DNA of 64,000 nt from Cerasicoccus arenae (GTDB taxonomy: Bacteria; Verrucomicrobiota; Verrucomicrobiia; Opitutales; Cerasicoccaceae). The stretch spans positions 101,965 through 165,964 of the forward strand of contig NZ_BMXG01000010.1 of assembly GCF_014651635.1 (NCBI RefSeq), in the 5' to 3' direction. Below, piece by piece: positions 8,391 to 57,110 of the stretch. Positions within the stretch are counted from its first letter, which is position 1. Each line of letters opens with the position of its first letter. A program made the position numbers and the translations under genes. Below the pieces are notes generated by a model that was given only the letters and a program-made list of their open reading frames with translations, was not told the origin of the DNA and made no database searches.

Positions 8391-8433
8391 CCGCAACATT
8401 GGGTAAGGCCTTGTGTGATTTTTACCTATTGGT

Positions 8434-8457
8434 GGTAGCGCAGCCGCGTCTCGCGGC
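8434..8457 (-). repeat. REP-like hairpin repeat, copy B
   Basis: On the minus strand this reads GCCGCG-AGA-CGCGGC (perfect 6-bp stem) and then TGCGCTACC, matching copy A at 1032-1056 in hairpin geometry and in the GCGCTACC tail. It lies in the 162-bp gap between convergent larB and the methyltransferase. No other gene is seen in the gap. Confidence 0.5.
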
Positions 8458-8552
8458 GCATGCGTGATGCTGGCCTTAACAGGATGGAACTGTGGCGCGA
8501 GATGCGCTCACGTTGCCTTGCAGAACGCAGAACTGTGCGGTGCTGGGTCGCG

Positions 8553-9125: not shown

Positions 9126-9267
9126 TGTGCTAATTCTGAAATTATATCTAACGTTGTTTTAAAACAGAAACTGGAACAGAAGCGAAGCACACAGTGCTCA
9201 TTGTTCTTTCTGCCTTTCCCAAATTATCTGTTTTATTCGCGATTGGGTGGTGTGGCCGAAAGGGGCA

Positions 9268-17695: not shown

Positions 17696-17751
17696 CTTAA
17701 TATGAGTTTTGGGTATGGGGTTGGCTGTGTAGGCCATTTAGTCTGAGATGA

Positions 17752-27509: not shown

Positions 27510-27521
27510 TATTACGTAATA
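27510..27521. promoter_or_regulatory. LacI-type operator (sulfatase operon), perfect palindrome
   Basis: TATTACGTAATA, 12 of 12, followed by GC. It lies 29 bp upstream of the sulfatase start and overlaps the longer frame, supporting the shorter start. Confidence 0.88.
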
Positions 27522-28366: not shown

Positions 28367-28404
28367 AGTATTTCAATCTGAAAATTACTGCATCGGGGGC
28401 ACAA

Positions 28405-30240
28405 TTAATTGTTGTTAGTCGGGTAACTCTCATTGGGGTAAGTGTCTTTCCAGAGCCACTCCAGTTGCACGCCCTCGTCCTCATTCAGTGATTTGTATAC
28501 CAGAGATTGCAGCTTGGTTTCCGACTTTTGGTCATCATTGAGGTATGCCCTGTATTCCAATGTAGATACCATCCTATCTAAGGCCCGCGATTGGTCTTTG
28601 ATTGCCGTCAACTTGCTGATCCAATATCCTCTCATTCCACGTATCGGATCGTTCAGGATGGCTACCATACGGGATTTGAAATCTTCATATGTGATGTCGC
28701 CTGCCATCGCCAATAAAGATTGGCTGACCCATTCGCGTCGCATTGCCGCAGTGGCACCGCCAAAAGAAATGGACATGGATCTGGGGAAGCCTTCTGACTG
28801 TGGGATGAATGCCTTCATCTTCTCGATGGTTTCAGCGCCACCTGTAGCTGGTAGCCATCCGGAACGGCGATTCAGTTCCTCGTTGATGGGCTGAGAGGTG
28901 ACAAACTGAAGAAAGTCAACTGCCCAATCAAAGTTTTTGGAGGTGTTGTTCACGCTCAATGCAACTCCTGACAGAAAGCTGGCTTCAGAGGTTTGATATG
29001 GAAGCAGTTTCGCCCAACGTTCACCCTCTGCTGGGATCGGTGCTCGTCGTATGATTGGCTCAAAGCGATCATCGGGGTCATCGCGATTTTGTGCACCCAT
29101 AAATATACTGGCAGCGTCCCAACCACCAGACGATATCATAGCGGCCTTTCCCAAGATGAATCGTCGCATGGCTTGCTCACGATCTAGCCCTAGAAAACCT
29201 TCGGGGTAAAAACTGGTGAGTAGCTGTGTTAGATTTATATATTCCCGAATGGGCTCATCGTCAAAGGACCATCGTTCAGTTGACCAGCCGTAGGCAGTCT
29301 CAAAGCCGTCCACGCCGCTACCAATTGGCCCTTCAATGCCTTCACTGAAATTAGACAGAAAGATCGGCTCGTATGCGAAACAAAGATTATTCCCACCATA
29401 ATTTCCTACTGATATAGGAACCAGGTAGGGGTCATTTATCGCCTTGCCGTATACTTTGACTGCACTGCAATAGAGGATGAATTGGCCGAGTGTTTCGGGC
29501 GGAATACGAGGAAGCGCTAGCCATTCACGCAAACGCTGGTTGTCGGGGAGGTAGCCTTTTACTTTATCACCGGATCGATCTATCCACAGCTTTGTTAACC
29601 AATCAGGCTGAGGGCTTTGTTGAATCTGTTCCTTAATGAATGCCTTAACCAATTTTAAAATATGATCGTTATAATAGATGCGCCCGTTGCCAAGCGTGCT
29701 TACTGGAATTCCGTAGTAACCATCCAAGATTTCATCATATCCGCCCCGCATACCGTCTACGGCCGTATCTTGCCAAGAAGAAGCGCTTAGATACTCGGCT
29801 AACGCAGGATCGAGACCATCAGCTAGAAACTTCTGGGCATTGTATGGATTTGGCTGGCTGATATACGAATCCATTGCGGAGTAGAAACGTGCCGTATTAC
29901 CACTGGCAATTACTTGAGAATTACGAGCGGCGATGTCCGGTGCAGTTCCACTGATAAGATGCACATTCATGAACTGGTTGTAAATTCGCTGATTAATCGG
30001 AACTTGCTCAACGCGTATGCCTGCCTCTTGGACTTTTGGGAGCTTCATGTATTCGCTCATTGCCCAGTCTAATGCTTCACGGTATCCGGGTTCCAGTTGC
30101 CAGTGAGCAATTCGTATAACTTTGCTATCCGCGTCCTCGCCATCGCCTCCCGTTAATGAGATGCGCAAGAATCGGCCCGCACTAAGCAGATAAGCGAAAA
30201 CTAGCAGCGAAATTGCGACATAGTTTAGGCGATTTTTCAT
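28405..30240 (-). CDS. ABC-type extracellular solute-binding protein family 1, membrane-anchored
   Basis: 611 residues, longer than the usual 400-450. An N-terminal helix (YVAISLLVFAYLLSAGRFL) without a lipobox acts as a signal anchor. The body has family 1 binding-protein features: VIRIAHWQLEPGYREALDW, ISGTAPDIAARN, GIPVSTLGNGRIYYND and NFDWAVDFLQFVTSQ. Such proteins capture sugars for import. The start codon overlaps the stop of the TPR lipoprotein gene (ATGA), showing translational coupling, and the permease that follows is broken, so the protein may now work with a distant transporter or as a sensor. Confidence 0.87.
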   Translation of the reverse strand: MKNRLNYVAISLLVFAYLLSAGRFLRISLTGGDGEDADSKVIRIAHWQLEPGYREALDWAMSEYMKLPKVQEAGIRVEQVPINQRIYNQFMNVHLISGTAPDIAARNSQVIASGNTARFYSAMDSYISQPNPYNAQKFLADGLDPALAEYLSASSWQDTAVDGMRGGYDEILDGYYGIPVSTLGNGRIYYNDHILKLVKAFIKEQIQQSPQPDWLTKLWIDRSGDKVKGYLPDNQRLREWLALPRIPPETLGQFILYCSAVKVYGKAINDPYLVPISVGNYGGNNLCFAYEPIFLSNFSEGIEGPIGSGVDGFETAYGWSTERWSFDDEPIREYINLTQLLTSFYPEGFLGLDREQAMRRFILGKAAMISSGGWDAASIFMGAQNRDDPDDRFEPIIRRAPIPAEGERWAKLLPYQTSEASFLSGVALSVNNTSKNFDWAVDFLQFVTSQPINEELNRRSGWLPATGGAETIEKMKAFIPQSEGFPRSMSISFGGATAAMRREWVSQSLLAMAGDITYEDFKSRMVAILNDPIRGMRGYWISKLTAIKDQSRALDRMVSTLEYRAYLNDDQKSETKLQSLVYKSLNEDEGVQLEWLWKDTYPNESYPTNNN

Positions 30241-31154
30241 TGCCCGACTCCTTCTAAGAACGCATTTCTCATTTCAGGAAGGGGCACGCTATCATCTGGA
30301 TTCGCTTCATTATATCGGCGGATATTATTTAGTGCGAACCAGCCGTATTGGCTGCGTGGATACTCCTCGACTAACTTGGTGGAATACACGGTAGAAAGAA
30401 GGGCTTGATCTGATCGCTTGGCGAACTCTGCCATCCGCCAAATGTAAATATGCTCTTTTGTTTTGTTAGCGAAGCCTTCTTCCAGGGCGATTTGATAGTA
30501 ATTCAAAGCGTTCTTGGGATCATTTAAGCGTTCGTAGTAAATGTCCCCAAGATACTGGGCTACGACGCTTCGCCAATTGGAATTGGGATAGCTTTCCAAA
30601 TGGTTACCGAGTATGCTGATAGCTCGTGTTAGTCCTTCTTGGGTTAGCGTTTGAACGTAAGTTTGCGCCAGCCTAAGCGTCGCCTCAGATACAAGATCAT
30701 TACTGGACTCAGAGGACAAAACTTCACGATACAGTGACTGGGCTTTGGGAAGATCTACTTCGTCAGTTCTGTAATCAGATACTTCGTAGATTCGACCTAG
30801 ACTGATCTTTGCCAGCGCAATAATTTGAGCATCCGAAGCATGATCAATTACCTGTTGGAAAAAAGAGCTTGCCAGTTCAATGTTATGAGCCGATGGAGGG
30901 CTGCTGTGCCAAGCGGCAATGGCGGCAGCAAAGGTGATTCTATCCCAACTATCTGAACCTTTATCTAAATTGGGTTGAACTTTACTCAGCTTGTTTCCCG
31001 CTAGGTTGTAGTCGTAATATTTGAGAGCTTCCAACCCCTCATCGACCAATTTCTGATTTTCACTATGCTTACTGTGCTCACCTTGATCGCAGCCAACCAG
31101 TATGCCTAGATATGCGGCAGCCAAGAATGCCAAGCCTGTCTTTAAATGCTTCAC
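30237..31154 (-). CDS. TPR-repeat lipoprotein
   Basis: 305 residues. A lipoprotein signal ends at LGILVGC (lipobox, Cys22). The rest is helical, with repeated 34-residue TPR-like units, for example QIIALAKISLGRIYEVSDY, EATLRLAQTYVQTL, VAQYLGDIYYERLNDPKNAL and LNYYQIALEEGFANKT, similar to YfgC/BamD-type scaffolds. It probably sits in the envelope and supports protein-protein contacts. It is first in an operon with the solute-binding protein (4-bp overlap), and a perfect operator lies 151 bp upstream. Its role in sugar capture is inferred from operon position. Confidence 0.83.
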   Translation of the reverse strand: MKHLKTGLAFLAAAYLGILVGCDQGEHSKHSENQKLVDEGLEALKYYDYNLAGNKLSKVQPNLDKGSDSWDRITFAAAIAAWHSSPPSAHNIELASSFFQQVIDHASDAQIIALAKISLGRIYEVSDYRTDEVDLPKAQSLYREVLSSESSNDLVSEATLRLAQTYVQTLTQEGLTRAISILGNHLESYPNSNWRSVVAQYLGDIYYERLNDPKNALNYYQIALEEGFANKTKEHIYIWRMAEFAKRSDQALLSTVYSTKLVEEYPRSQYGWFALNNIRRYNEANPDDSVPLPEMRNAFLEGVGQ

Positions 31155-31305: not shown

Positions 31306-31317
31306 TATTACGTAATA
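31306..31317. promoter_or_regulatory. LacI-type operator (TPR lipoprotein / solute-binding operon), perfect palindrome
   Basis: TATTACGTAATA, 12 of 12, followed by GCAA, 151 bp upstream of the TPR lipoprotein start. Confidence 0.86.
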
Positions 31318-36306: not shown

Positions 36307-36448
36307 CCGCAATGAAGTCCTGATGCTGTTTAGGGGGGGCATATGAAGGGGATAGGTTTCTGGGGTGGACCGATGGTCTCGACGAACCCTGCCGAGCGCA
36401 TCTGTTAGAATCGGCGCGTGAGATAGAACTGCTCTAACAATGTCCGAC

Positions 36449-36460
36449 TATTACGTAAAA
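36449..36460. promoter_or_regulatory. LacI-type operator (giant pilin-like operon)
   Basis: TATTACGTAAAA, 11 of 12 matches, followed by GCAAG, 142 bp upstream of the 36306 start (106 bp from 36342). Confidence 0.78.
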
Positions 36461-36554: not shown

Positions 36555-38537
36555 TCAGTAGGCCTTGTTTATCTCTGGGGGGCAGATCAGAAAAGATAGT
36601 TCGCAGCGCTGTGGTCCGTTTTCTAGGCGGACGAGGATACTATTGTAGCCCTGCTTGAAATAAACCTTATTGAAGTGTTCTCCAAGTGCCCAGCGGCTCT
36701 GGCCGCTATCTTGCCAGACGGGAAAGCCGTTGATCCAGACCTTTGCGGAATCGTCCGATCCGATTGCAATTAACATATCTCGTGCTTCCTCGAAGTAAAT
36801 ATCTGTATGAAGATAATAGGTCGCATTGGAGACCTCGTCGGGAACCATTGTGCGGATGGAGTCCGACTGGATAAAATTCCATCGGAGGGTGCGCGGCTCG
36901 TTCAAGGTATAACCGCGAATGATGCCCTGTTCGGAATCCTGCCGGGCGTGTTGCGGGGTATAGACCTTGCCTGTGTAGGCACCATCAAAGTTTATCTCAC
37001 TTTCAGGTGGGAGGGGGATATCGAAGCTCCGTAAATCCCCATCGTTGTCCCATGGGCCAATCACATACCAGGTATCCAGATAGAGCCAGCCCTGTCGTGA
37101 GCTAGAGGCCGAAAAACGGCGACCTGGAAGTGCATTCGCGGTAATATTGATTCCGTCCAAATTGACTACTTGTTTGCTGTCTGGGGAGAAGTCGTTGGCG
37201 CTCTCCGGCGATCCTTCAATATTGCGGTATTCCTGCCCTTCAGGTCCGCTGGAATCTGAACCGGATTGACTCATCGCCATCCGCATCAGGGCGGAAACAT
37301 CTTGGACCTCACCGGGTTGAGACTCGCTACTTGCCTTGTGTAAACGGTTTTGCAGTGCCTGGTTGAGAGAGGTGGACGGGGACATCGTTGCGGAGTCGCG
37401 GGATTGGTTACTGTTCAGCTGCTGCGCCATTTGATTGGCTCGCTGGTTGAGCTGGGAAACCTGCCGGGCTGCCTCATTGACCGCTTCTTTGCGCTGGTCG
37501 AGTTCGCCCAATGTTGTTGGTGTATCTGGCGCTCGAAGTGCGGGTATGTCGCTCATTTGCGATTCACTGGGAATGAGTTTCGTGCGTGCGGACTCGATGT
37601 CCGTGCCTTGGCGCATAGCGAGTTCGGCAGCCCGCGACCCATCGATGCTTTCGTTTATCAGTTGTTCGAGTTGTTGGGCTGCGTCATGCAGTTCAGCGAT
37701 GGATTTATTATCCGTCTGTTCGAGCGTTTCGGCGATGGGCTCGGGGAGTGTCGCCTGGGCGTTTTCATTGGTCTTTGCGTTCTGTTCGGCGGTGATTTGA
37801 TCGGGTGCATCGATCAGTTCGTTTGCCTTGTTCAAGGAATCTCTGGCAGCCCAGAGAATTTGACGGCGTCTGGCGTCGAAGGCCTTGTTTTGTGGCAGTT
37901 CGACGGCACTTGTCTTTTCGACCAGTGATTTGGCTGCGTCCATAACCTCGTCGAGCGTATCCTTATTGTAGCCCTCATCTAATTGCTCCAGTAATTCTTC
38001 GAATTTTTTTCGGTCTTTTTGTAGCGATTCGGCAAAGCCCTCGGGCACTTGTTTGCCGAGGTCTTTATCCGCCTCGAGCCATTCGAGGTCGTCAATTTTT
38101 TCAAGAGTGCGCTCCATGTCGCGGCGAAGCGGTTCCAGTTGCTTGTTGAGTCGTTCTGCGAGACTGCGATTTTCCACGTGCTCGAGTTTTTGCAGCCGCT
38201 CTGCTTCTAATTTTTCATAGACCTCTCTAACATTTTGCAATTGTCGGGTTATTTCCTGGCGCTCTTTTTTTTCAATCTCCTCAGTGAGTTCGCGAGCATG
38301 TGCTTCGCTCAGTTGTCGTTCAGCTCGCTCCTTTTTCTGCTGCTCGCGGATTGCCTCTGCGCGCTCACGGACCTCTTGGGTGCGGGTCTCCGCCTCTTCC
38401 CGGCTAAATTCAAGCTGATTGTAGCGCAAAGAGGGAATCAGGTAGATCATTGCCAATCCACCAAATACCATAAGAGTAGCCGTGAGCCAGCACCACTTTC
38501 GGATCCGGCTCAGGCTATTTGCGGTTATATTTTTCAT
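36555..38537 (-). CDS. Membrane-anchored coiled-coil protein with C-terminal jelly-roll domain, Exb-system partner
   Basis: 660 residues. ATG 38537 is chosen (MKNITANSLSRIRKWCW) because it precedes a single membrane helix (LTATLMVFGGLAMIYLIPSL, about 18-37); the longer frame from 38729 overlaps exbD almost wholly. Residues about 45-370 are highly charged coiled coil (REEAETRTQEVRERAEA, ERQEITRQLQNVREVYEK), followed by a Gln/Ser/Asn-rich linker. The last 180 residues form a PA14- or galactose-binding-like beta domain (WYVIGPWDNDG, GSDDSAKVWINGFPVW, QGYNSILVRLENG). The layout (one helix, long periplasm-spanning coil, terminal domain) parallels TolA/TonB, but the C-terminal domain is different. 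It overlaps the second exbD by 23 bp. Confidence 0.8.
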   Translation of the reverse strand: MKNITANSLSRIRKWCWLTATLMVFGGLAMIYLIPSLRYNQLEFSREEAETRTQEVRERAEAIREQQKKERAERQLSEAHARELTEEIEKKERQEITRQLQNVREVYEKLEAERLQKLEHVENRSLAERLNKQLEPLRRDMERTLEKIDDLEWLEADKDLGKQVPEGFAESLQKDRKKFEELLEQLDEGYNKDTLDEVMDAAKSLVEKTSAVELPQNKAFDARRRQILWAARDSLNKANELIDAPDQITAEQNAKTNENAQATLPEPIAETLEQTDNKSIAELHDAAQQLEQLINESIDGSRAAELAMRQGTDIESARTKLIPSESQMSDIPALRAPDTPTTLGELDQRKEAVNEAARQVSQLNQRANQMAQQLNSNQSRDSATMSPSTSLNQALQNRLHKASSESQPGEVQDVSALMRMAMSQSGSDSSGPEGQEYRNIEGSPESANDFSPDSKQVVNLDGINITANALPGRRFSASSSRQGWLYLDTWYVIGPWDNDGDLRSFDIPLPPESEINFDGAYTGKVYTPQHARQDSEQGIIRGYTLNEPRTLRWNFIQSDSIRTMVPDEVSNATYYLHTDIYFEEARDMLIAIGSDDSAKVWINGFPVWQDSGQSRWALGEHFNKVYFKQGYNSILVRLENGPQRCELSFLICPPEINKAY

Positions 38538-38937
38538 CGTAAGTGCGTATGACGACGTTCTGAAGTCCGCGGAACTGACAGATATCCATAACCTGGACGA
38601 CGGAATTGAAGGGCGCTTGGGCGTCTGCATCCAGACGTATCTGTCGATCGGGTTCACTGGCCGACAAGTCGCGAAGCTCTTGGTGAAGTAGGTTGACCGA
38701 GGCGGGGCGTCCTTCGTAAAAGAACTCACCTGTTTGCGAAATGCCTACCACTACTGCTTTGTCATCGGCAGGCTTTTTGATTGCTGAAATCGACTCAGGT
38801 GGGGTGATCTCGATGTCTTTGTCCTCCTTCTTCATCATAGTCGCGACAAGGAAGAAAATCAGCAACAGAAAGACCGCATCGATCATCGGTGCCATGCTGA
38901 CTTCGATTTTGTTGTTATTTGCCTGGCTTAAGCGCAT
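38515..38937 (-). CDS. exbD: ExbD/TolR family protein (second copy)
   Basis: 140 residues. One N-terminal membrane helix, MAPMIDAVFLLLIFFLVATM, keeps the proton-path Asp of ExbD/TolR, and the periplasmic domain has QIRLDADAQAPFNSVVQVM, the ExbD strand-helix pattern. It pairs with ExbB/TolQ to turn proton-motive force into movement of a periplasmic partner. It lies 4 bp downstream of the first exbD and overlaps the coiled-coil gene. Two different ExbD copies suggest a heteromeric stator. Confidence 0.9.
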   Translation of the reverse strand: MRLSQANNNKIEVSMAPMIDAVFLLLIFFLVATMMKKEDKDIEITPPESISAIKKPADDKAVVVGISQTGEFFYEGRPASVNLLHQELRDLSASEPDRQIRLDADAQAPFNSVVQVMDICQFRGLQNVVIRTYDEKYNRK

Positions 38938-38941
38938 TGTT

Positions 38942-39394
38942 CTAAAAAGTCTCTGGCAGGGTTCTTACAGATACATTGTGAAAACCCTGGAGCTGTGCTA
39001 TATCTAGGACATCGATCACCTTTTGGGTGGGGGTATCCCGTGCAACGGAAATTTCGAGTGGATGTGTCGATCTATTTTTGGCATCCAGCGACTGAAGGAA
39101 TATCGCGAAATCTTCAACCGGGGTATATTCGTAATCGAAAGAATTTCTCGGGCCAATACGCCGATTGCTTGTCATGACCTGGCCCTCGCGGTCAATGGCA
39201 AGCTTCACTGTGGTGTCTGAGGCTTGCTGCGAGAGGGCGGAGGTTTGATCGGGCAGTTCGACGGGGATGAGCATTTCAAAGCGCTTGAACATACCGGTCA
39301 CAAGAAAAAATATGATAAGCAAAAAGACGCAGTCGATTAAGGGGGTGATGGGCACCTCCTCAACCTCATCTTCACTTTTATATCGGAGCCGCAT
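38942..39394 (-). CDS. exbD: ExbD/TolR family protein (first copy)
   Basis: 150 residues. The membrane segment VPITPLIDCVFLLIIFFLVT keeps the essential Asp. The periplasmic part has PLEISVARDTPTQKVIDVLD followed by IAQLQGFHNVSVRTL. It differs clearly from the second copy and has a longer periplasmic loop (FDYEYTPVEDFAIFLQSLD). It starts 9 bp after exbB on the same transcript. Confidence 0.9.
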   Translation of the reverse strand: MRLRYKSEDEVEEVPITPLIDCVFLLIIFFLVTGMFKRFEMLIPVELPDQTSALSQQASDTTVKLAIDREGQVMTSNRRIGPRNSFDYEYTPVEDFAIFLQSLDAKNRSTHPLEISVARDTPTQKVIDVLDIAQLQGFHNVSVRTLPETF

Positions 39395-39403
39395 TTCAGA
39401 GCT

Positions 39404-40147
39404 TTAGCTGACGGCTGCTTCTGTGGCTTCCTGCTCAGGCGTTTCTGCCAAAGGCGATGGAGCGGACTCCTCTGGTTGAGCCTCCGGCCTATCGGTTCCC
39501 AAGAACCAACTGAGGTAAAGGGCTTCCATGTTCGCCTCCAAGCTCTTGGATATTTTTTGTAGTTTGCGCTTGAAAGTGTGGTGGAGGAAAAGCGCTGGCA
39601 GGGCGATGATCAGACCGACCGCTGTTGTGATGAGCGCTTTAGCAATGGAGCCAGCCAACATGGAGGCTCCTCCCTCGTCACCATAGAGCGCAACCAACTG
39701 GAATGATTCAATCATGCCGATCATGGTACCGAGCAGACCCAGGAGCGGAGCAGCTGCAGCAATCAGCGAAAGCGAAGCCAGTTTTTCGTATTCAGTTTCG
39801 ATTTCGCGCTGGGCGATATCCTGCATGTTATCGGAGATATTTGGTGAGGAGGTGCCGTGGTGAAGGGCGAAAGCGATCACGCGAGCCAAGGTGTGGTTCT
39901 CCTTCTGGCAGCGGGACTCCATTGTTGAATAGTCTTCGTTCGAGGCGAGCCTCAGCATGGTCTGCGTAAATCCGACTGGCGAGAAGCGCTTGAGCCGAAG
40001 TGCGTACATGCGCTCCAAGCTAATAGCAATCAGCGCAATTACCAAGAGGCCTTGAACAATAACAACGATGCCTCCTTGCTGGAGTTGTTCGAACCAATCC
40101 ACCTGTACGGTTTCAGGGCCGACGATTTGTGCGATAAAAGTGAGCAT
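39404..40147 (-). CDS. exbB: MotA/TolQ/ExbB family proton channel protein
   Basis: 247 residues. The three-helix plan of ExbB/TolQ is seen: a first helix in GGIVVIVQGLLVIALIAISL, then the conserved pair LIAAAAPLLGLLGTMIGMIE and ALITTAVGLIIALPALFLHH, which carry the threonines of the proton channel. The C-terminal tail is acidic and Pro/Glu-rich. With the two ExbD proteins it forms an inner-membrane motor. It lies 30 bp downstream of the clan GH-A gene and is apparently expressed from the operator-controlled promoter at 42932. Confidence 0.92.
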   Translation of the reverse strand: MLTFIAQIVGPETVQVDWFEQLQQGGIVVIVQGLLVIALIAISLERMYALRLKRFSPVGFTQTMLRLASNEDYSTMESRCQKENHTLARVIAFALHHGTSSPNISDNMQDIAQREIETEYEKLASLSLIAAAAPLLGLLGTMIGMIESFQLVALYGDEGGASMLAGSIAKALITTAVGLIIALPALFLHHTFKRKLQKISKSLEANMEALYLSWFLGTDRPEAQPEESAPSPLAETPEQEATEAAVS

Positions 40148-40177
40148 AATGAATATTTTGTAACTTACACAATAAGG

Positions 40178-42916
40178 TTAATCTTCGAATATGAGCATGC
40201 CCCAGGATTCCCAGCCCTTACCGGGTCCTGCGGGCCACGTCGCCACCGTTTTCGGACTAAGCGCTCTTGAGATTTTAGCGTTAATGGTCATGCGCCAAAT
40301 TTCGTTGGCCTCGGGGGAGGCCTCCAAGACCTCGTCGGGGATGAATATTTCGAGAGTCATCATCCCGCCTTCGTAAATGACGGCATTCTTGGTTCGTATG
40401 TCGTCTTTCAGGTGATTCCTGGAACCGTCTGGCATCTGCTTGTTCCACTCCCCGGCGAATAGCCGCCAAGGCTGGTTCTTTCCGTCCTGGGTTGGCACGA
40501 AGTATAGCAGATGCGGGCGCACGGCTCCTGGCTCAGTCTTCACATCGGCGGCGTTGAGGTTCATTTCGAGCCCTGTCCATTCCCAGAAATCCTCAGGCTT
40601 CGCCGGTGGCTTGAGGCCCATCCCGACCGGAATTTGTGCGGCGACATAAAGTCCTTCGGACGACCATGCGAGCCGCATCTTGGGGTCGAAGCCGGTTTCC
40701 AGCCCTTTCAATAAAAGTGAGTGTCGGGTTAGGATGCCATTGTCTTTGGGCCAGTCGTCCAGACTTCCGTCTATCTGGATATTTCCGGCTTTGGGCACTT
40801 GCAATATGCGAGGGCGAATCCATGTCACCTGGGTCCCGCCATTGCTTAACTTTGAAGTGAGTTGTATTGGACCTTGGTCCTCTGAGGTGGCGGTGAATTC
40901 GAGCGTTTTGGTTTGATCACTTTCAAGTTCCAGGCTGTCCGGTGTCATGGTGCCAAGCTCTTCAGGTGTGGAGAAAGTGGCTTCGACGGCTTTCGGAATC
41001 AGTAAAGTCGCCTCGATGGACGAAGGCTTCCCTGGTGTGTAAGGCATCGTCCGTATACTCACAGCAGGGCGCACGACCAAGCGTAGGGTGAAACGCTTTT
41101 CCCAACCCTTATCTGAAGCCACTGCCTGAATGGAGTAGATCGCGGCGGGCAGAGTCGGATTGGCGCTTAAGTCGCATACCCAAGTGTTATCTTCGTAGGT
41201 CCATTCACCCACCTGAACTCCTGATGGAAGGTCGGCAAAACGAAGTTTGATATCCCCACCGGCACGGACTTCAACAGTGGCATCATCACCTTGATAGATG
41301 TTAATTGTGCTCGTGCTGAGCAACTGAACCTGGCGCTGAGATTCCCATTCATCGGGGAGGGCGGAGAGGTAGAAATAGGCGGGGTCGTCGCTTAGGCGAC
41401 GGTCGCGGAGTGGATTCCCGTAGAGGTCGAAAGACTCTTTGGCGTTTTCCAATTCGGAGGGCAGGGGGAACTCGGTTCCTACTGCCCAAGCGGCAACCAG
41501 CCACCCACCTTCTGGGCGCTCGAACAGGAGACACCAGCGTTCATGACCGATGTCAACTGAGCCAGCATACCGAGCACGGGCAATGAATTTCGAGATGCCA
41601 GCCATGGCCGCACCAACTGGAAGCGCCACCGTGGGTTTGGTCTCCATATCGATCAATCCTGTCCCGCTAAAGCGTCCCTGGCCGCCAAGGTTGCGGTCCC
41701 AGAACCAAAATACCTTGTCGGTTCCTGCCCAGGCAGCGAGCAGGTAAATGCGGTGGAGGTAAGCCGCCTGGTATCGATAGCCTACCTCTGGCCCGCCTTC
41801 CGCCGACCAAGCTATTTCCGACAGCCATGTCTCTTTACCGTGGTCTTTGGCGAGTTGATTCATCTCCCGCATGATATCAAGAAACGAGACGGTCTGCGGC
41901 CGGTCTTCGGCCCCGGTGTTGATATCCCGCTCTGCAATCTCGGGAGCAACGGTGCCCGTATAATAGTGGTAGTTGACAACGGAATAATAATCTCCGACCT
42001 GTTCTAGTAGGTAGCGCGCCCGGACGGGGTGGATGCCCGCCTCGCCGTCCAGGACGACCTTCGCGCCGTTTCCTGCGTCTTGGAGGCCTGCGTACGCCAT
42101 GCGAATGTATTTCACGTAGCTTTCGAGGTATTTCTGATAGTCTTCTGTCGTCTCGTCCCGGTGTTGAAGGTTGGATTCATTGTCCAACTCCCAATAGAGG
42201 ATGTCGGGAAAGCCCTTGCTCAGCCGTTCGTAAGATTCTTGAATAACATCGCCCCAGGGGATGAAAAAACGATTATCCTTCGTCCGGAAGGCTCGCTGCA
42301 TCACTGGGAGCACTTCGATACCTGCCGCTTGAATTGCCTCGAGTTTCTTGCCGAAGTCTGTGTGATTGGCGGCTTTGGGGATATGTTTTCCCTGGCGCAG
42401 CCAGCCCCAGCTATAATCGCGAGCCCAGTGTACGCCGAAGGCCTTCAATGTCTGCCAGTGAGCCCCGTCGTGGGTGTTAATACCGATAGGTGACGCGATT
42501 CGCTCGGCCTTCGTTAGCTCGGGCAGGGGCACCGGCTTGACTAACCACAATCGTTGGGTGGCGATGGGCTGCTTTGTCTCGGACTCGAAGACCTCCACCC
42601 GATACTCCGTCGCGCCATAGTATTCAACTGGCACTACTGCCTTGTGAGTCCAGACCTGCTTCAGGTCGGCAGGCAAAGTCGCACCCTTCGTTTCAATGCC
42701 GTAGCGATCGGTGAAATACTGGCGCACCTCGTAGGCGCCGTCTTTGGAATCCCCCTGCTGCAACTTAATGGTCACCTCACTCGAAGCTCCATCCATGATG
42801 ACGGCGTCCGGAGCTTCCGGTAGTAGGGACAGTTCCACTCCCGGCAGGGAGCTAGAACTGAATGAGAACAAGGTGCTAACAATAAGCAACAACATTGGAC
42901 GGGGTATGATTGTCAT
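40178..42916 (-). CDS. Secreted clan GH-A glycoside hydrolase with C-terminal CBM9-like domain
   Basis: 912 residues with a signal peptide (MLLLIVSTLFSFSSSSLPG). A beta-sandwich (about 25-130) precedes a TIM barrel of GH39/GH5-like type: PIGINTHDGAHWQTLKAFGV, the acid/base Glu in ILYWELDNESNL (about 245) and the candidate nucleophile Glu in ETWLSEIAWSAEGG (about 364). A further beta region is followed by a CBM9-like domain (about 715-912, IQIDGSLDDWPKDNGI, LRLAWSSEGLYVAAQIPV-type strands). The substrate is not deducible. It opens the operon that continues into the Exb motor genes, with an operator 15 bp upstream of the start. Confidence 0.83.
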   Translation of the reverse strand: MTIIPRPMLLLIVSTLFSFSSSSLPGVELSLLPEAPDAVIMDGASSEVTIKLQQGDSKDGAYEVRQYFTDRYGIETKGATLPADLKQVWTHKAVVPVEYYGATEYRVEVFESETKQPIATQRLWLVKPVPLPELTKAERIASPIGINTHDGAHWQTLKAFGVHWARDYSWGWLRQGKHIPKAANHTDFGKKLEAIQAAGIEVLPVMQRAFRTKDNRFFIPWGDVIQESYERLSKGFPDILYWELDNESNLQHRDETTEDYQKYLESYVKYIRMAYAGLQDAGNGAKVVLDGEAGIHPVRARYLLEQVGDYYSVVNYHYYTGTVAPEIAERDINTGAEDRPQTVSFLDIMREMNQLAKDHGKETWLSEIAWSAEGGPEVGYRYQAAYLHRIYLLAAWAGTDKVFWFWDRNLGGQGRFSGTGLIDMETKPTVALPVGAAMAGISKFIARARYAGSVDIGHERWCLLFERPEGGWLVAAWAVGTEFPLPSELENAKESFDLYGNPLRDRRLSDDPAYFYLSALPDEWESQRQVQLLSTSTINIYQGDDATVEVRAGGDIKLRFADLPSGVQVGEWTYEDNTWVCDLSANPTLPAAIYSIQAVASDKGWEKRFTLRLVVRPAVSIRTMPYTPGKPSSIEATLLIPKAVEATFSTPEELGTMTPDSLELESDQTKTLEFTATSEDQGPIQLTSKLSNGGTQVTWIRPRILQVPKAGNIQIDGSLDDWPKDNGILTRHSLLLKGLETGFDPKMRLAWSSEGLYVAAQIPVGMGLKPPAKPEDFWEWTGLEMNLNAADVKTEPGAVRPHLLYFVPTQDGKNQPWRLFAGEWNKQMPDGSRNHLKDDIRTKNAVIYEGGMMTLEIFIPDEVLEASPEANEIWRMTINAKISRALSPKTVATWPAGPGKGWESWGMLIFED

Positions 42917-43110: not shown

Positions 43111-43122
43111 TTTTACGTAATA
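43111..43122. promoter_or_regulatory. LacI-type operator (PEP-CTERM gene at 43213)
   Basis: TTTTACGTAATA, 11 of 12 matches, 90 bp upstream of the plus-strand gene starting at 43213. The 296-bp divergent gap thus carries one site for each direction. Confidence 0.75.
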
Positions 43123-43212
43123 CCATAAGTTAGTCTTCCAGTACAATCCCAATAAATTGCCGTAAAAACGGTGATCCCCAAATCGATAATCAAACCTAAC
43201 CCACCCATATCC

Positions 43213-44148: not shown

Positions 44149-44181
44149 ACCGGCGGGTGAAACCTGCCGGTTGTTTTTTTT
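44149..44181 (+). terminator. Strong intrinsic terminator
   Basis: A 10-bp stem (ACCGGCGGGT / ACCTGCCGGT, one G-U pair, GAA loop) is followed by TG and eight T, 55 bp after the PEP-CTERM stop. Confidence 0.92.
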
Positions 44182-44236
44182 GATTTCATCATGTAATATT
44201 TTGCATGAAACGCTTCGCATTGAACTGACTGAATAT

Positions 44237-45619: not shown

Positions 45620-47923
45620 CTAGTTTTTGATTTCGATGATTGAGATCCACGCGACATCGACGTCGTGGTCGAACTGTATGGTGAGTGGAGTGCCTCGGGA
45701 GGTGACGCGCCCTTCGAAGTTTGGCTTGGCACCCTGGGGAGCGCTCAAAGTAAGTTTGAGCGGGCCACCTGCGCCTCCGTCGACGATTGCATTGATGTCG
45801 GATGTGCCAGAGCGGGCGTATCCGCATATCTCATAGTCGCCGGGTTCGACGTCGATTTTAAATTCAGTATTCCGCTTGAAGCGTGTGATGTCGCGGGTCA
45901 AAGGTGCTAGGCGGTCGTAGTCTCGGTCTCCGTCTGAGGCAGCCGAGGTAGTGAAGCCGTAGCCCATTTGCGATGAGTATCGGTCGCCTTTAGTCACGGT
46001 GGTAAAGGGGCGCATCAGGCCGTGGCCTTGGAGCAGGCCGCCGTATTCATGCGTGCCGAAGTCAAAGAGATACATTTTCAAGGTTTTTGATTCTTCAAGT
46101 GAACGTATCGCCTGGTTCTTCATCTCAAGTGCTTTGTCTTTCAGGGCAAATACCTCGCTGATGTCACCGATATCAGAAATATAAACTGGGAAGTCGCCTA
46201 ACGCCCACTCACCGTTGAGTTCTGCCCGACGTTTATTCCCAAAGGCATCCGTGATTGTTACGGTTCCAAGGTTAAGATTGACGCTATCTCCGCCTTCGAC
46301 TGCCCAGGCCGTTAGCATTGGGCCGTTTCTTGTTTTCCATAGGATAAGGCGGATATTTTTATTGGGGTGGGGCAATACCAGGCAGTCACGCGTACCGACA
46401 CCATCGAGTTCCCGGATCAGCGTTGCCATAGTCAGCCAGGAAGGACGGATGTTCTCGTCGTTGTCGATCAACCCGGCACCAGCATGCTGTGAGGGCGTTG
46501 AGCCCTTCTCGCGGTACCAGAAAATGCGGTCTACGCCGTTGGCAAAGGCGAGCAAATATACACGGGGTAATTTAGCGCAGTGCATGCGCAGGGTGCTGCC
46601 AATTTTACCTCCGACATCGTACCCTGTTTCGGTGATCCAAATTTCGGCTTCGGGCTTGAATTGGTTGCGCCAGGCATCGAGGTCGATCAGGTTTTCCTCG
46701 AAGGTGCGGGCACCATCGACAGCGACGCCGGTGCGATTTGCGTTGGGATCCAAAGTGGCGGTCTCAGGCAGGGATTTACCACTATAGTAGTGGACGTTGA
46801 TTATATCGGTGAAATCGAGTGGGTGTTTCCCGTCGGGATAAGTATAGGTGCGGAGCTGGTCGACTAGCTCCGGTGCCAGACCGGCGTAGCTGGAGTGTGA
46901 GATCAGTACATCTGGGTCAGCAGCTTTGCCGGCTTCTGCTGCAGGGCGAAACATTTCAAAATACTGTTCCATGCTGCCGACCCAGAAACCCCAATTGGGG
47001 TTGGTCAAGTTTACCTCGTTCCACAGTTCCAGCATCGCTAGTTGATCTAGACCAGATTTCTTATTCTTGGATTTAAGAGCTGAGTTTGGATGATTTACAT
47101 CGCCATACCGTGCGATGGTCTGAAAGACAGCGTCGGCGTAGTAGGCATTGTCGGTGGGGGGATAAACCAGTTTGCGCGGCTTTTTAATATCTTCGGGCGC
47201 GGAGGAGGCCCACCAGGGAGTCTGGAAAAAGTAGCCTGCCATCTTGAAGCCGGCCGCCTTGTAAGCTGCCAAGATTTCGTCCATTTTAACATTCCAGGGA
47301 GCGACGCTGCCATCGAAGGCATACTCGTCTTTGCTTGGGTTAACAAATGCCCACTTGAGGTTTTCGAAGCGAATCCATCCGACCCCTAGCCGACGCAGAT
47401 TGTCTATGTATTTCGGGTTCGATGAATTCATGCCAAAGCGTGAATCCTCTGGTAATTCTGGCAATGACTCATGCATTACGATTTGATGGTCATAAAGCAA
47501 TTGAGTTGCACCACCGAGATTCACGCTGAGTGCGACGAAATAGTATCCGACTGGAATGCCTTGCTCGGTGCTTATCTCAAAGGTCTTCTTGCCATTAGCA
47601 GGCACCTCAATTTTCATGGAGGCACTGTCAGCTTCGGGGCCAATCTCAGGGAGGGAAAGCTCGCCCAAGGAGGGCGCTGGAGCGCTTTCTTCGGAGAACT
47701 CCGAGTCGACCTGAACCGAGAGCGATATTGTGCCGGAGAGGCTACGGTTGCTTTGATTGTGGACGGTGACTTCGCGTATTATCGGTTGGCCGGGATCCGT
47801 TGTGTTCACACCGTTTTGCGTCGCAGCGAAAGGGATGCCAACGGAGCCGGGCATGGTGTCGGCTTGTAGCAGGGAAACGCTGATAATTAGGGAGAGGGCA
47901 GTGACGAGAAGTTTTGAGGCCAT
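45620..47923 (-). CDS. Secreted clan GH-A glycoside hydrolase (GH39-like) with C-terminal beta domain
   Basis: 767 residues, signal peptide MASKLLVTALSLIISVSLLQ. An N-terminal Ig-like sandwich (about 25-155) precedes a TIM barrel with RFGMNSSNPKYIDNLRRLGV, acid/base Glu in MLELWNEVNLTNPNWG (about 301) and nucleophile Glu in IWITETGYDVGG (about 430). The last 200 residues contain a heptad-rich helix (FALKDKALEMKNQAIRSLEE) and a jelly-roll domain (GDYEICGYARSGTSDINAIV). It shares plan and catalytic motifs with the 40178-42916 enzyme. It lies 40 bp downstream of the GH94-like gene, so the operator at 50313 probably controls both. Exact specificity unknown. Confidence 0.83.
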   Translation of the reverse strand: MASKLLVTALSLIISVSLLQADTMPGSVGIPFAATQNGVNTTDPGQPIIREVTVHNQSNRSLSGTISLSVQVDSEFSEESAPAPSLGELSLPEIGPEADSASMKIEVPANGKKTFEISTEQGIPVGYYFVALSVNLGGATQLLYDHQIVMHESLPELPEDSRFGMNSSNPKYIDNLRRLGVGWIRFENLKWAFVNPSKDEYAFDGSVAPWNVKMDEILAAYKAAGFKMAGYFFQTPWWASSAPEDIKKPRKLVYPPTDNAYYADAVFQTIARYGDVNHPNSALKSKNKKSGLDQLAMLELWNEVNLTNPNWGFWVGSMEQYFEMFRPAAEAGKAADPDVLISHSSYAGLAPELVDQLRTYTYPDGKHPLDFTDIINVHYYSGKSLPETATLDPNANRTGVAVDGARTFEENLIDLDAWRNQFKPEAEIWITETGYDVGGKIGSTLRMHCAKLPRVYLLAFANGVDRIFWYREKGSTPSQHAGAGLIDNDENIRPSWLTMATLIRELDGVGTRDCLVLPHPNKNIRLILWKTRNGPMLTAWAVEGGDSVNLNLGTVTITDAFGNKRRAELNGEWALGDFPVYISDIGDISEVFALKDKALEMKNQAIRSLEESKTLKMYLFDFGTHEYGGLLQGHGLMRPFTTVTKGDRYSSQMGYGFTTSAASDGDRDYDRLAPLTRDITRFKRNTEFKIDVEPGDYEICGYARSGTSDINAIVDGGAGGPLKLTLSAPQGAKPNFEGRVTSRGTPLTIQFDHDVDVAWISIIEIKN

Positions 47924-47963: not shown

Positions 47964-50288
47964 TTAGAATGTGATTTCCAATAGGTTGTTATTTTCGCTT
48001 AATTGCTCGGCCTTGATTGGTACGCTATTGATCGAATTACCATTTAAAAAGCGGGAGCCTATACCGGTACGTTTCCACTCTATCTGGATTTGTTTGTTAC
48101 GGTAGTTTCGCGACATGCTGGCCCGATCCCAATCGGAGGGGAGTTTCGCACGCACATCTAGTCCATCTATTCCCGCGACGACTCCCAGAATGCTTTCTAT
48201 TGCCGTTCGGAATGCCCAACCTGCGGTCCCGGTACGCCAGGAAAAGTAGGATCGCCCAGAAGAATCTTTGCCAGCTTCTGGGGCATAGTAGGAGTTGGTT
48301 AGGGAAAATGGTTCCTGATGGGAGTGAGAGGGCGGGTTTTGGGGGTTAATGGGCAGAATCCGTTTGAGGGTGTCCAGTGCATCGTCCACCCGTCCGCTCT
48401 GTCCCAGTGCATAAGCCATAAACATACTTCCATGGCAGTAATTGCCTCCGTTCTCAAGATGGCCCGGCGGGGTGCTGCTGAGTAGGCCTATGCTAGGATC
48501 GAAACGGGTATAGGGTGGGTTTAGCAGGCGGAAACCATGGTCGACCTGTAAATAACGATAGGTGGCCTCCAGTACGGAGGGAATCTGTTCCTCGGTCGCA
48601 ATCCCACTGATCATGCTCCAAGCTTGGGGGAGCAGGTAAATGGAGCCTTCGGCACAGTCAGGTGTCCCGACTGGATGACCCGCGTCGGTGAAAGCGCGTG
48701 AGTACCATTGCCCATTCCAGGCCTCCCTGCGCAGATCATCGGTTACTGTGCGATACCGCTGTTCGAAGCTTTGTGCATCATTGGCCTTGCCGACTTTGGC
48801 GGCGATTTCAGCCAAGAGGCGGAGCGATTGCGCCAAAGCCATGGTAGTCCAGACGCTTTGGCCTTTGCCATCTTTGCCGATACCTGTCAGACGGTCGTTC
48901 CAGTCCCCATAAGGCATCAGGCAGAGTTTGCGATCTCCGCGATTATTCCAAAGGTAGTCAGCACCTCGCTTGAGGTGCTCGTAAACGGAGCTTGCTTCTT
49001 CGGATTCAAAAAACGGTGCCCTTTCTTCGAGCAATTCAAAGTCCCCGGTTTCTGCGAGATAGGCGTGCGTGGCAAAGATCAGCCAAGCTCCGCCGTCATT
49101 ATACTGGTCACGGTCGACAGGGCCCCACTTCCGGACGGTGCGCCCGTCGTCATACTGGTAAGGAAGGCAGTCCAGAATCATCTTCCGCGAGCGTTGTGGG
49201 TCGAGAAGGGTGAAGGCCCAGGCATCCTGGTTACTGTCACGGAAACCTTTGGCCCAACCCCGATTCCAATAAGCGCTGTAGGTCAGCTGATGTTTGATCC
49301 AGGTATTTGTGTATAAGTCGAATACGGGGTCAGGAGTGCTGACGGTTAGTTTGCCGTAAAGGTCGTCAAACCATTTGCTCTGCTGGTCTTTGGAACGGCG
49401 AACTTGCTCACTTCTGAAACGGGGTTCGTCAACACCAGTCGCATTAAAGCGAAGTCCAAGGGCGATGAGTAGGTCTTTTGACTCGCCGGGACACAGCGTG
49501 TGCTCTGAGTAACCACAAAGGATGGGTGCTTCAATTGCACTGTCGGCTTCAGGCCAATTGCATATTAGCGCGTCGGGCCGGGTGAGATTACCGTAGGTAC
49601 CAGTGAAATCTAGCCGTGTAAATAGAGCCCCTCCGAAGACATCACTGGATTCGAGGAATGCCGTTCGGGTTTTCCCGGTTAGTGGCTCTAGGCTGTGCAA
49701 TTCGAGACAGTGACCGTCCCGCGATCGAGCCGAACTAAAGGGATTGGCAGTTTGGAATTTCGCGGAGCCTTGATTGAGGGCGAGATCAGTGTAAAAGATG
49801 ACGCGCCAAGTCGCAGTGCTTTGTCCCGTGTTATGGAGGCTTGTTTCAAAGTATTCTACTGGGTTCTCTGTATCCACAGTATGCGTAATCGTCAGTCGCA
49901 AACCATACTGTTCGATTTCTGTAATGCTGTAGTTTAGTCCATATCGATACTTAAAGTTATTGAAGTCTCGATTACAAATTGGGCTGTAACCCGGGGAAAA
50001 GAGCTGCCCGGTGTCGACATTTTGAAGATAGAAGTATTTGTGGCCAGACCAGTTGAGGAGAATCGTCTCCCCTGAATCTTCTCGTTTGTAACTGATCCCT
50101 CCGGTAGTCTGATTTGGATGGGTATTGTAGTGGGTGTTCCAGAGTATGTTCTTCCATGGGCGTGGCGAAAAAGGGCTGAGAAGGACATATTCCCTGTTCT
50201 TCTGGTCGAAATACCCCCACGGGGTGGTTTCTATCCGTGAGTTTTGCTGCGGATTGACGACAGGGCCTTTGGATGTGGTTGAATGCAT
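47964..50288 (-). CDS. Glycoside hydrolase family 94-like phosphorylase
   Basis: 774 residues, no signal peptide, cytoplasmic. The N-terminal beta-sandwich (about 20-290, TPWGYFDQKNREYVLLSPFS, NWSGHKYFYLQNVDTGQLFS) and (alpha/alpha)6 barrel match GH94 cellobiose/chitobiose-phosphorylase relatives. The acid Asp is in LMPYGDWNDRL (about 460), and the phosphate-binding loop in FSWRTGTAGWAF (about 684). Such enzymes split beta-linked oligosaccharides with phosphate to give a sugar 1-phosphate, saving ATP. In this locus it would act on disaccharides released by the secreted hydrolases. The linkage is not deducible. Operator 24 bp upstream. Confidence 0.88.
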   Translation of the reverse strand: MHSTTSKGPVVNPQQNSRIETTPWGYFDQKNREYVLLSPFSPRPWKNILWNTHYNTHPNQTTGGISYKREDSGETILLNWSGHKYFYLQNVDTGQLFSPGYSPICNRDFNNFKYRYGLNYSITEIEQYGLRLTITHTVDTENPVEYFETSLHNTGQSTATWRVIFYTDLALNQGSAKFQTANPFSSARSRDGHCLELHSLEPLTGKTRTAFLESSDVFGGALFTRLDFTGTYGNLTRPDALICNWPEADSAIEAPILCGYSEHTLCPGESKDLLIALGLRFNATGVDEPRFRSEQVRRSKDQQSKWFDDLYGKLTVSTPDPVFDLYTNTWIKHQLTYSAYWNRGWAKGFRDSNQDAWAFTLLDPQRSRKMILDCLPYQYDDGRTVRKWGPVDRDQYNDGGAWLIFATHAYLAETGDFELLEERAPFFESEEASSVYEHLKRGADYLWNNRGDRKLCLMPYGDWNDRLTGIGKDGKGQSVWTTMALAQSLRLLAEIAAKVGKANDAQSFEQRYRTVTDDLRREAWNGQWYSRAFTDAGHPVGTPDCAEGSIYLLPQAWSMISGIATEEQIPSVLEATYRYLQVDHGFRLLNPPYTRFDPSIGLLSSTPPGHLENGGNYCHGSMFMAYALGQSGRVDDALDTLKRILPINPQNPPSHSHQEPFSLTNSYYAPEAGKDSSGRSYFSWRTGTAGWAFRTAIESILGVVAGIDGLDVRAKLPSDWDRASMSRNYRNKQIQIEWKRTGIGSRFLNGNSINSVPIKAEQLSENNNLLEITF

Positions 50289-50312: not shown

Positions 50313-50324
50313 TACTACGTAATA
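50313..50324. promoter_or_regulatory. LacI-type operator (phosphorylase / GH operon)
   Basis: TACTACGTAATA, 11 of 12 matches, followed by GCAATG, 24 bp upstream of the GH94-like start, in the divergent gap shared with the LacI gene (160 bp from its start). Confidence 0.82.
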
Positions 50325-50483: not shown

Positions 50484-51530
50484 ATGACAACAGAAGTAAA
50501 AAACGGAAAGAACCGGGCGCAACGCCCGACCTTCCGGGACTTGGTGAAACTGACCGGCTATTCGCAAGGTGCGATATCGCGTGCCTTCAACGGACAGCCG
50601 GGTATCGGCGAAGCAACGCGCGAGAAGATATTAAAGGCGGCCCGTGAGATCGGCTACTATCCGAATCCGGCAGCGAGAAATTTTAAACGTGGCTACACCT
50701 CTAGAATCGGAATCGTCCTGCCCAATCTGGGAAACACGAACTACTCTGAGTTATACGAGCAGTTGGATTTGGTTAATGCGAAGGGGGGGTACAGCTCAAT
50801 TCTTGCGATTACTCACGACTCAGAGACTGTGGAGGCAGATACCTTGTTGCACTGGTCTGCTGGAGAAACCGATGGTTTGATTATCAATCCAATCGTGAGT
50901 GGAAAGAACGTAGATTTGTACCGGAAACTAAAATCGTGGGGTTTCCCGATTGTCTTACTTTATAGGCTTTTTGGCAGCGAATTCGATGGCGTTTACATCG
51001 ATTACAAGGCTTGTTTGCGCCAAGCTCTTATTTACCTGCAAGATGTGGGGCACCGCAAGGTTGCTTATGTGGGTTTTTCGAATCTTAGGAAGCCAGTGGG
51101 AAAACTGTGGCTTCTCCTAGAGCTATTAAAGGAATTGGAAATGGAATTTGATGAGACAGGGTCGGTCTTTGATATTGCTGGTGACGAGGCCGGTATTCGG
51201 GCATTCAGCCAATGGAACCTTCAGGGGCGCCGTCCGACCGCAGTTGTTACCTACAGCGACCAAACGGCGATTTCACTCTATTCGGATGCGGTTAGCATGG
51301 GTTTGGAAATTCCCCGCGATATCTCTATATTCGGAAGTGATGATGTTGCCGGTGCCAAGGCAGTGGGCCTATCGACCATTCGAGTGGACCGTTCTCTAAT
51401 GGCTCGTGTAATCGTGGATATTCTCCATGCTCGGATGCGTGATTTCGATGCGCCCACACGGATTCAAACTTTGCCTTGTGAACTAGTATTAAGACGGTCT
51501 ATGGGGCCAGTCCCGAAATCGAAGAAATAG
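50484..51530 (+). CDS. LacI-family transcriptional regulator, candidate master regulator of the island
   Basis: 348 residues. The N-terminal helix-turn-helix (about 13-60) reads TFRDLVKLTGYSQGAISRAF, with the hinge segment YYPNPAARNFKRG. The effector domain is the periplasmic-binding-like fold of the family: SRIGIVLPNLGNTNYSELYE, GLIINPIVSGK, YIDYKACLRQALIYLQDVGH, ISIFGSDDVAGAKAV and STIRVDRSLMARVIVDIL. The recognition helix (SQGAISRAF) differs from the common xxTVSRVL form. It is the only regulator in the island, divergent from the phosphorylase operon and convergent with the rhamnosidase gene (6 bp apart). The palindromes with a central CG are the kind of site this family binds, so it is the natural candidate to bind all of them. 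Confidence 0.92.
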   Translation: MTTEVKNGKNRAQRPTFRDLVKLTGYSQGAISRAFNGQPGIGEATREKILKAAREIGYYPNPAARNFKRGYTSRIGIVLPNLGNTNYSELYEQLDLVNAKGGYSSILAITHDSETVEADTLLHWSAGETDGLIINPIVSGKNVDLYRKLKSWGFPIVLLYRLFGSEFDGVYIDYKACLRQALIYLQDVGHRKVAYVGFSNLRKPVGKLWLLLELLKELEMEFDETGSVFDIAGDEAGIRAFSQWNLQGRRPTAVVTYSDQTAISLYSDAVSMGLEIPRDISIFGSDDVAGAKAVGLSTIRVDRSLMARVIVDILHARMRDFDAPTRIQTLPCELVLRRSMGPVPKSKK

Positions 51531-57098: not shown

Positions 57099-57110
57099 TA
57101 TTACGTAAAA
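57099..57110. promoter_or_regulatory. LacI-type operator (esterase / rhamnosidase operon)
   Basis: TATTACGTAAAA, 11 of 12 matches, followed by GCAACG, about 77 bp upstream of the esterase start. It is the last copy found on the right and lies just before the IS30 element. Confidence 0.82.

Follow-up and report, generated by a model that had tools for sequence, protein, structure and literature searches.

The locus under study lay on the minus strand of the window, by which we mean the whole stretch of 64,000 nucleotides analysed here, part of the 4.13-Mb genome, in 63 contigs, of a marine Verrucomicrobiota bacterium of the Cerasicoccus group. Five genes ran from position 42916 down to 36555 and encoded a hydrolase, the motor ring subunit ExbB, two ExbD proteins and a force-transducer-like arm (Table 1), with successive gaps of 30, 9 and 4 bp and then a 23-bp overlap. 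The first-pass annotation had described this order together with a LacI-type operator upstream, the conserved Asp and Thr residues of the motor, a partner of TolA/TonB topology ending in neither a TonB nor a TolA tip, and the lack of a SusC-like receptor. The coordinates were confirmed, and each of these points was borne out by the analyses given below. In particular, no TonB receptor was found in the window, and the three Plug matches of the genome all lay outside it.

Table 1. Positions of the main features, numbered from the first letter of the window
Feature	Position	Strand	Basis or remark
Hydrolase, clan GH-A-like, secreted, 912 aa	40178..42916	-	First gene of the motor operon
ExbB/TolQ-type motor ring subunit	39404..40147	-	MotA_ExbB PF01618, 90.6 bits (Pfam cut-off 22.9); tree grouping with cassette ExbBs
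ExbD1, membrane Asp kept	38942..39394	-	PF02472, 79.8 bits (Pfam cut-off 25.4); TolR alignment
ExbD2, membrane Asp kept	38515..38937	-	PF02472, 105 bits (Pfam cut-off 25.4); ExbD alignment
Arm, force-transducer-like, 660 aa	36555..38537 (ATG 38537)	-	TM helix, long helical region, linker, jelly roll
Predicted jelly-roll domain of the arm C-terminus, 197 aa, GH2 sugar-binding/PA14-like fold	36558..37148	-	Structure model, VIA, Foldseek
Candidate operator TTTTACGTAATA	43111..43122		Before motor operon; shared with divergent secreted-protein gene 43171-44094
Candidate operator between GH94 and LacI genes	50313..50324
Candidate operator upstream of Verru_Chthon_A-like gene	36449..36460
Candidate operator, perfect, upstream of TPR/solute-binding pair	31306..31317
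Candidate operator, perfect, upstream of sulfatase	27510..27521		Sulfatase start 27480 judged likely
Candidate operator upstream of esterase (AXE1/glucuronoyl-esterase-like)	57099..57110		Start 57021 judged by eye
LacI-family regulator	50484..51530	+	PF00356, 30.1 vs 27 bits
GH94 phosphorylase, probable regulon member	47964..50288	-	PF17167, 270.7 bits; site 31 bp upstream
GH39-like secreted hydrolase, downstream of GH94	45620..47923	-	PDB match to GH39 beta-xylosidases
TPR protein, partner of solute-binding gene in relatives	30237..31154	-
Sugar-type solute-binding protein, N-terminal hydrophobic stretch	28405..30240	-	PF13416, 30.5 vs 27 bits

The three motor subunits exceeded their family cut-offs (Table 1). 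In alignments with solved proteins, the Asp of the membrane helix was present in ExbD1 (against TolR) and in ExbD2 (against ExbD), and each of two ExbB helices had a Thr aligned with that of solved TolQ; we take these residues to have functional roles in the motor. The genome had 13 ExbB and 17 ExbD matches, and thus Exb motors as such were not rare there. The possibility of an anti-phage motor was rejected, since there was no PADLOC match at E<=0.001.

Neither Pfam nor NCBIfam matched the hydrolase at E<=0.1, and a sequence search of the PDB found nothing at E<=1. The hydrolase aligned with the product of the neighbouring gene 45620-47923 (24% identity, E 3e-13 for that single comparison), which itself matched GH39 beta-xylosidases in the PDB with an E of 5e-4. 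Therefore, it was reasonable to call the hydrolase clan GH-A-like.

The arm and its modelled jelly-roll tip

The arm had a single TM helix (judged by eye, and seen as helix 8-33 of a low-confidence model) followed by a long periplasmic helical region and a C-terminal beta domain. The full-length model was poor, with a pLDDT of 58. The only Pfam match of the arm, DUF2935, fell below its cut-off (22.4 vs 24.4 bits). No TonB_C/TonB or TolA family match was obtained at E<=0.1 with Pfam and NCBIfam, nor was a VWA match obtained at E<=0.1 with Pfam.

The tip alone, modelled from 64 sequences, reached a mean pLDDT of 88.4 and formed a beta sandwich with three short helices. VIA-align matched this model to the GH2 exo-chitosanase 2vzv with a Z of 11.7 over 132 residues (rmsd 2.8), compared with best Z values of 7-8 that are typical without a clear match. 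Nearly all rows below 2vzv among the VIA matches listed were GH2-type enzymes. Additionally, Foldseek matched the tip to PA14 carbohydrate-binding domains with an E of about 1e-4 and a TM-score of 0.44, and the query-normalised TM-scores among the matches listed were 0.26-0.47. At the level of sequence, PA14 (PF07691) stayed below the Pfam cut-off on the tip (14 vs 24 bits), 5 of the 64 members matched it at E<=0.1, and searching the PDB with a profile of the tip returned best hits that were chance-like (E 0.0007 over 33 positions). Thus, at the level of the model, the tip adopted a jelly-roll fold like those of GH2 sugar-binding and PA14 domains, for which the sequence matches were weak. Such a domain may bind glycan, although similarity of fold does not in itself demonstrate sugar binding.

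Palindrome sites and sugar genes around the motor

The palindrome TATTACGTAATA occurred at 11 sites of the window with at most 2 mismatches, compared with 0.87 expected, and never more than 4 times in 100 shuffles. One of the 11 matches (2717) was inside a gene. The strict form WWTTACGTAAWW was found at 10 places in the 4.1-Mb genome, 5 of them within the 64 kb, and a reversed control pattern was found at 3 places. Measured from the site centre, the sites lay 201 bp before the motor operon, 54 bp before the divergent secreted gene, 31 bp before the GH94 gene, 165 bp before the LacI gene, 158 bp before the TPR-solute-binding pair, 113 bp before the Verru_Chthon_A-like gene and, with gene starts judged by eye, 36 bp before the sulfatase and 84 bp before the esterase. 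A poorer copy with 3 mismatches was present at 42932. For the genes at 16.9-23.1 kb, the palindrome sites were 21-352 bp upstream.

Since the same palindrome preceded the motor, the GH94 and LacI genes, the solute-binding operon, the sulfatase and the esterase, the motor was probably part of one sugar regulon. Sugar regulation of the motor in this genome was thus well supported as a prediction from the shared palindrome. The LacI-family protein is likely to bind these sites, judging from its position and the form of the palindrome. The GH43, GH39-like, GH94 and AXE1/glucuronoyl-esterase-like enzymes point to a putative xylan-like substrate.

Several other genes of the window could be described in passing. 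Three secreted proteins (16916-17737, 19900-23130 and 43171-44094) were each encoded behind a palindrome match, and two of them had PEP-CTERM-like tails by eye. The overlapping ORFs at 44171-45230 resembled fragments of a single broken sulfatase, also by eye. The gene at 32467-36342 encoded a very long pseudopilin-like protein with a weak Verru_Chthon_A match at its N-terminus. It was followed by a gene for a 233-aa protein (31769-32470), and this pair recurred in the genome (L054) and near the cassette L076.

The adjacent pseudopilin-type protein raised the possibility that the motor belongs to an apparatus for secretion or at the cell surface, such as one that includes this Verru_Chthon_A-like product. 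The gene had an operator of its own, and L065, L076 and L081 had similar genes close to the cassette. However, such genes were present at 2 of the 79 listed loci (L076 and L081), and the TIGR02600 match was weak (17.3 bits vs a cut-off of 332.3). We consider an apparatus of this kind very unlikely.

In L066/L187, a TPR-solute-binding pair, whose solute-binding protein was a relative (49%) of the one in the window, was located directly before an ExbB-ExbD-ExbD-arm cassette. At 14 loci with a strong solute-binding match, a permease-like gene (named by eye) came next in 9; the other 5 were the window with a broken permease, L187 with the motor instead, and L194, L195 and L202. In these last three, the approximately 1.5 kb read showed no intact permease and no motor, and therefore a motor-coupled solute-binding protein was only a lead, with no special link established. 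The permease remnant of the window (27702-28369) followed the solute-binding gene, matched relatives in two frames and stopped near residue 222 of about 490.

Conservation of the motor and arm in other genomes

We used the C-terminal domain of the arm as a marker and scanned one genome per species, which gave 79 loci among the matches listed (80 of 91 confirmed). The 67 strong loci (L075-L141) were kept and the 12 weak matches (L142-L153) were set aside. According to their titles, the 67 strong loci listed came mostly from Verrucomicrobiota, Kiritimatiellota, Lentisphaerota or an 'uncultured bacterium'. The exceptions by label were three Planctomycetota (L112, L119 and L137) and MAGs named Armatimonadetes (L109) and Blastochloris (L107).

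ExbB and ExbD adjoined the arm gene in 57 of the 67 strong loci listed. In the other 10, the start of the arm gene was at most 534 bases (nine loci) or 2,393 bases (L129) from the contig end. Motor and arm together were firm, both as gene content and as a co-conserved unit. Beyond ExbB, ExbD and the arm, clustering found no gene family common to more than 7 of the 67 listed loci. The observed orders were ExbB-ExbD-arm, ExbB-ExbD-ExbD-arm, ExbD-arm-ExbB-ExbD (e.g., L085), ExbB-ExbD-arm-ExbD (L092) and ExbB-arm-ExbD (L209, L210). In some cassettes the arm was one fused protein; in others (e.g., L101, L104, L110, L116, L124 and L126) it was made up of two, a TM-coil protein and a secreted protein with coil and jelly roll. 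Tandem arm genes followed a single ExbB-ExbD pair in L120, L122, L128 and L141 (the ExbB end of L122 was off the contig), and the arm of L082 was split over two overlapping ORFs.

A separate draw of 387 genomes from the phylum contained 111 that matched the tip domain at E<=0.001, including 29 at >=100 bits. Among 15 stretches read from this draw, 7 had a match of at least 112 bits together with a motor (L209-L214 and L217), and L216 had no tip-profile match. No motor was found in six weak stretches (44-73 bits; L204-L208 and L218), and no ExbB was near any of the 12 weak loci L142-L153. These weak matches without a motor indicated that the wider jelly-roll family was larger than the motor module, and related jelly rolls probably have uses outside it as well. 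L215 (154 bits, 8355-10472) encoded an arm-like protein next to a pseudopilin-like gene, and across 18 kb neither ExbB nor ExbD was found.

In a tree of 64 of 71 rows, from which near-copies, short rows and two contig-end rows were left out, the cassette ExbBs clustered together (SH-aLRT 96), separate from 10 of the 11 other ExbBs of the genome; the eleventh was outside the tree. The window ExbB grouped with L083 and L066 (support 97) on a long branch of 1.92. This was a quick tree with long branches on the window row and on the other ExbBs, and the program warned that such joins may be false. As the quick tree placed the window protein in the cassette group, we rejected the idea that it was a plain duplicate of the other ExbBs of the genome.

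The docking motif of the arm differed between cassettes. PMC12204202 describes SHLS, a Ser- and His-containing motif of the TM helix through which TonB and TolA attach to their motors. The corresponding motif [S/A]xxxH was absent from the TM helix of the window arm on sequence inspection. Among the 57 listed motor loci, it was kept in 41 of 41 readable one-ExbD cassettes (with Ser in 39, and Ala replacing Ser in L112 and L125) and absent in 14 of 14 two-ExbD cassettes, as well as in the window, L055, L063, L065 and L066. These counts, read partly by eye, covered 55 of the 57 cassettes; L088 and L090 were excluded because a second ExbD would fall past the contig end. For 37 of the 41 one-ExbD cases, we used a script with a pattern looser than SxxxH and then checked the result, and L100, L103, L135 and L108 were read individually. 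L130-L133 were near-copies with an identical helix. L080 and L055 had a His directly before the helix (TSHKP), off the motif spacing. In the rumen Lentisphaeria L085-L090, with the order ExbD-arm-ExbB-ExbD, the arms were about 950 aa long and the docking motif was missing.

Possession of two ExbDs was not strictly tied to absence of the motif, since L211 had two ExbDs and kept SxxxH and L213 had two ExbDs and SxxxQ. The two-ExbD rows needed one change on the ExbB tree (support 85). Because one change suffices, the second ExbD and the loss of the docking motif may represent a single event rather than many.

The TonB-like motif of the one-ExbD relatives, together with the three Plug matches of the genome, would fit a motor that serves as a TonB-type energiser of a distant TonB-dependent receptor, with the jelly roll in contact with the receptor or its lipoprotein. 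On the other hand, the window had no receptor and the arm no TonB_C domain. Moreover, of the three TonB_C places in the genome, those on C7 and C10 adjoined other ExbB/ExbD genes, and one Plug place was near the C10 set. We find little reason to favour this explanation, and regard it as improbable.

The glycosidase was not supported as a fixed partner of the motor. Five full-length homologues of the hydrolase in relatives were found elsewhere, with no adjoining ExbB or ExbD in flanks of about 1.5 kb, so that the hydrolase was rejected as a conserved motor partner. The proposal of a sugar-controlled motor stood as far as the repeated palindrome tied the operon to the LacI and enzyme genes, and its suggestion of the glycosidase as a steady companion did not survive in relatives. 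Other cassettes gave a mixed picture. In L084, 3 bp separated the end of a LacI gene from ExbB; in L082, a LacI-like gene split over two ORFs preceded ExbB by 109 bp; arabinose-type genes (named by eye) were beside the cassette in L124; and the gene just before ExbB in L065, L076 and L080 may encode a Peripla_BP_4 protein.

We also compared neighbour genes of at least 180 aa in sets chosen partly by eye and excluding the window, so that the counts are illustrative. The 64 neighbours of six cassettes included 5 LacI, 4 sulfatase, 2 rhamnosidase and 1 GH115 among the Pfam matches listed. The 50 neighbours of seven other cassettes had neither LacI nor sulfatase among their 25 commonest families, which included 3 Peripla_BP_4, 2 GH5 and one each of GH20, GH57 and CBM96. 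The control set comprised 80 genes next to the other motor loci of the genome (7 of 11 own-genome stretches); TPR families led its 25 commonest, and LacI, sulfatase and rhamnosidase were not among these 25. Thus, sugar genes were frequent near some cassettes and not near all, and the glycosidase association was mixed across cassettes. A plain constitutive Tol/Exb system with no glycosidase link did not describe the window, but other cassettes were not always located in sugar loci.

This variety bears on a further explanation, in which the module performs general Tol-Pal-like envelope maintenance and the arm ties the inner to the outer envelope through peptidoglycan, LPS or an outer-membrane protein. 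The copy at the sugar locus would then be a paralogue that meets envelope needs during growth on polymers and has no part in uptake. The surroundings of related cassettes were indeed varied, and no further gene was widely conserved in them. A second copy in the same genome (L055, contig 21) had neighbours that by eye formed no polysaccharide cluster, and the one strict operator of contig 21 was about 12 kb from it. However, the window copy carried the operator common to the sugar genes, and LacI, TPR-solute-binding or arabinose-type genes were directly beside the motor in some other cassettes. For the window copy, we judge an envelope role without uptake somewhat unlikely, although it has a better claim than either the apparatus or the TonB receptor. 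For the wider cassette family, a general envelope role may apply.

Proposed mechanism and comparison with known systems

The most likely single reading of the window copy was glycan handling at the envelope. It builds on what was established for gene content, motor-arm co-conservation, the modelled tip fold and the shared palindrome. We propose, with a confidence slightly better than even, a PMF-driven 5:2 force-transducing motor with a TonB/TolA-like arm that is used here in glycan utilisation. An ExbB pentamer would surround an ExbD pair, probably of ExbD1 with ExbD2, and the proton motive force acting through this complex would drive the arm. The arm would cross the inner membrane once, span the periplasm with its long helical region and carry the jelly roll at its end. 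In place of a TonB or TolA tip, the jelly roll might grip a glycan itself, a component of the envelope that carries glycan, or else an outer-membrane protein. The motor would be switched on with the putative xylan-like degradation locus by the LacI regulator of that locus, and force from the proton gradient may help to move or admit glycan at the envelope. Glycan might then be taken up by a route other than TonB/SusCD, as suggested in the first-pass annotation.

Several observations counted against glycan utilisation as the role of the motor: the hydrolase was not beside the motor in relatives, the second cassette set had no LacI or sulfatase among its 25 commonest families, the window arm had lost the docking motif, and the arm-like gene of L215 had no motor nearby. 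Additionally, the lack of a conserved outer-membrane partner nearby counted against uptake.

The system works like TonB/TolA force transduction, and it is not TonB or TolA by its tip nor, for the window arm, by its docking motif. It shares with TonB-ExbB-ExbD the ExbB/ExbD motor, the one-TM arm and, in one-ExbD relatives, the docking His. In contrast, the window has a modelled jelly-roll tip, no TonB_C, no receptor, an arm without the His and two ExbDs. Similar to Tol-Pal (TolQ-TolR-TolA), it combines a motor with an arm that has a long helical region, whereas the window arm has no TolA family match and its motor is predicted to be sugar-regulated.

Among the published cases read, the closest was the class of vWA-type force transducers that PVC bacteria carry (Williams-Jones et al. 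2025, PMC12204202), described there as having a vWA tip and a proline-rich/disordered linker of about 100 residues. As in that description, a TonB/TolA-like arm bears a foreign tip. However, the window arm falls outside the class so described: its tip is modelled as a jelly roll made mostly of beta strands, and its helical region is long. The SusC/SusD systems of Bacteroidota offer an analogy of energised glycan import in a sugar-regulated locus, although the window has no SusC-like receptor. The Akkermansia mucin loci described in PMC13174399, namely the pilus-like MUL2 and the Sus-resembling MUL1, are likewise glycan-acquisition loci of Verrucomicrobiota; they were compared by description only, and that description mentions no ExbB/ExbD arm. 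Our searches of open-access papers, covered mostly at the level of listings, gave no account of a jelly-roll arm.

Selfish polysaccharide uptake has been observed in both the Verrucomicrobiota and the Planctomycetes. According to a recent methods paper, its specific mechanism is still to be found for some of the selfish organisms (PMC12323593). It could be speculated that a lectin-tipped, proton-driven arm powers a TonB- and SusC-independent outer-membrane route for large polysaccharides and represents one missing mechanism of selfish uptake in Verrucomicrobiota and their relatives. We consider this broader idea unlikely, well behind the proposed use in glycan utilisation. Nevertheless, a sugar-regulated motor with a tip of the sugar-enzyme type is a concrete and testable candidate for such a mechanism. 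With this arm, the known force-transducer tips are no longer limited to TonB/TolA and the vWA class proposed recently. How arms attach to these motors could be studied in the two-ExbD class, whose loss of the docking motif amounts to a natural experiment. Finally, related motors across Verrucomicrobiota-type bacteria may help to explain how large sugars are imported.
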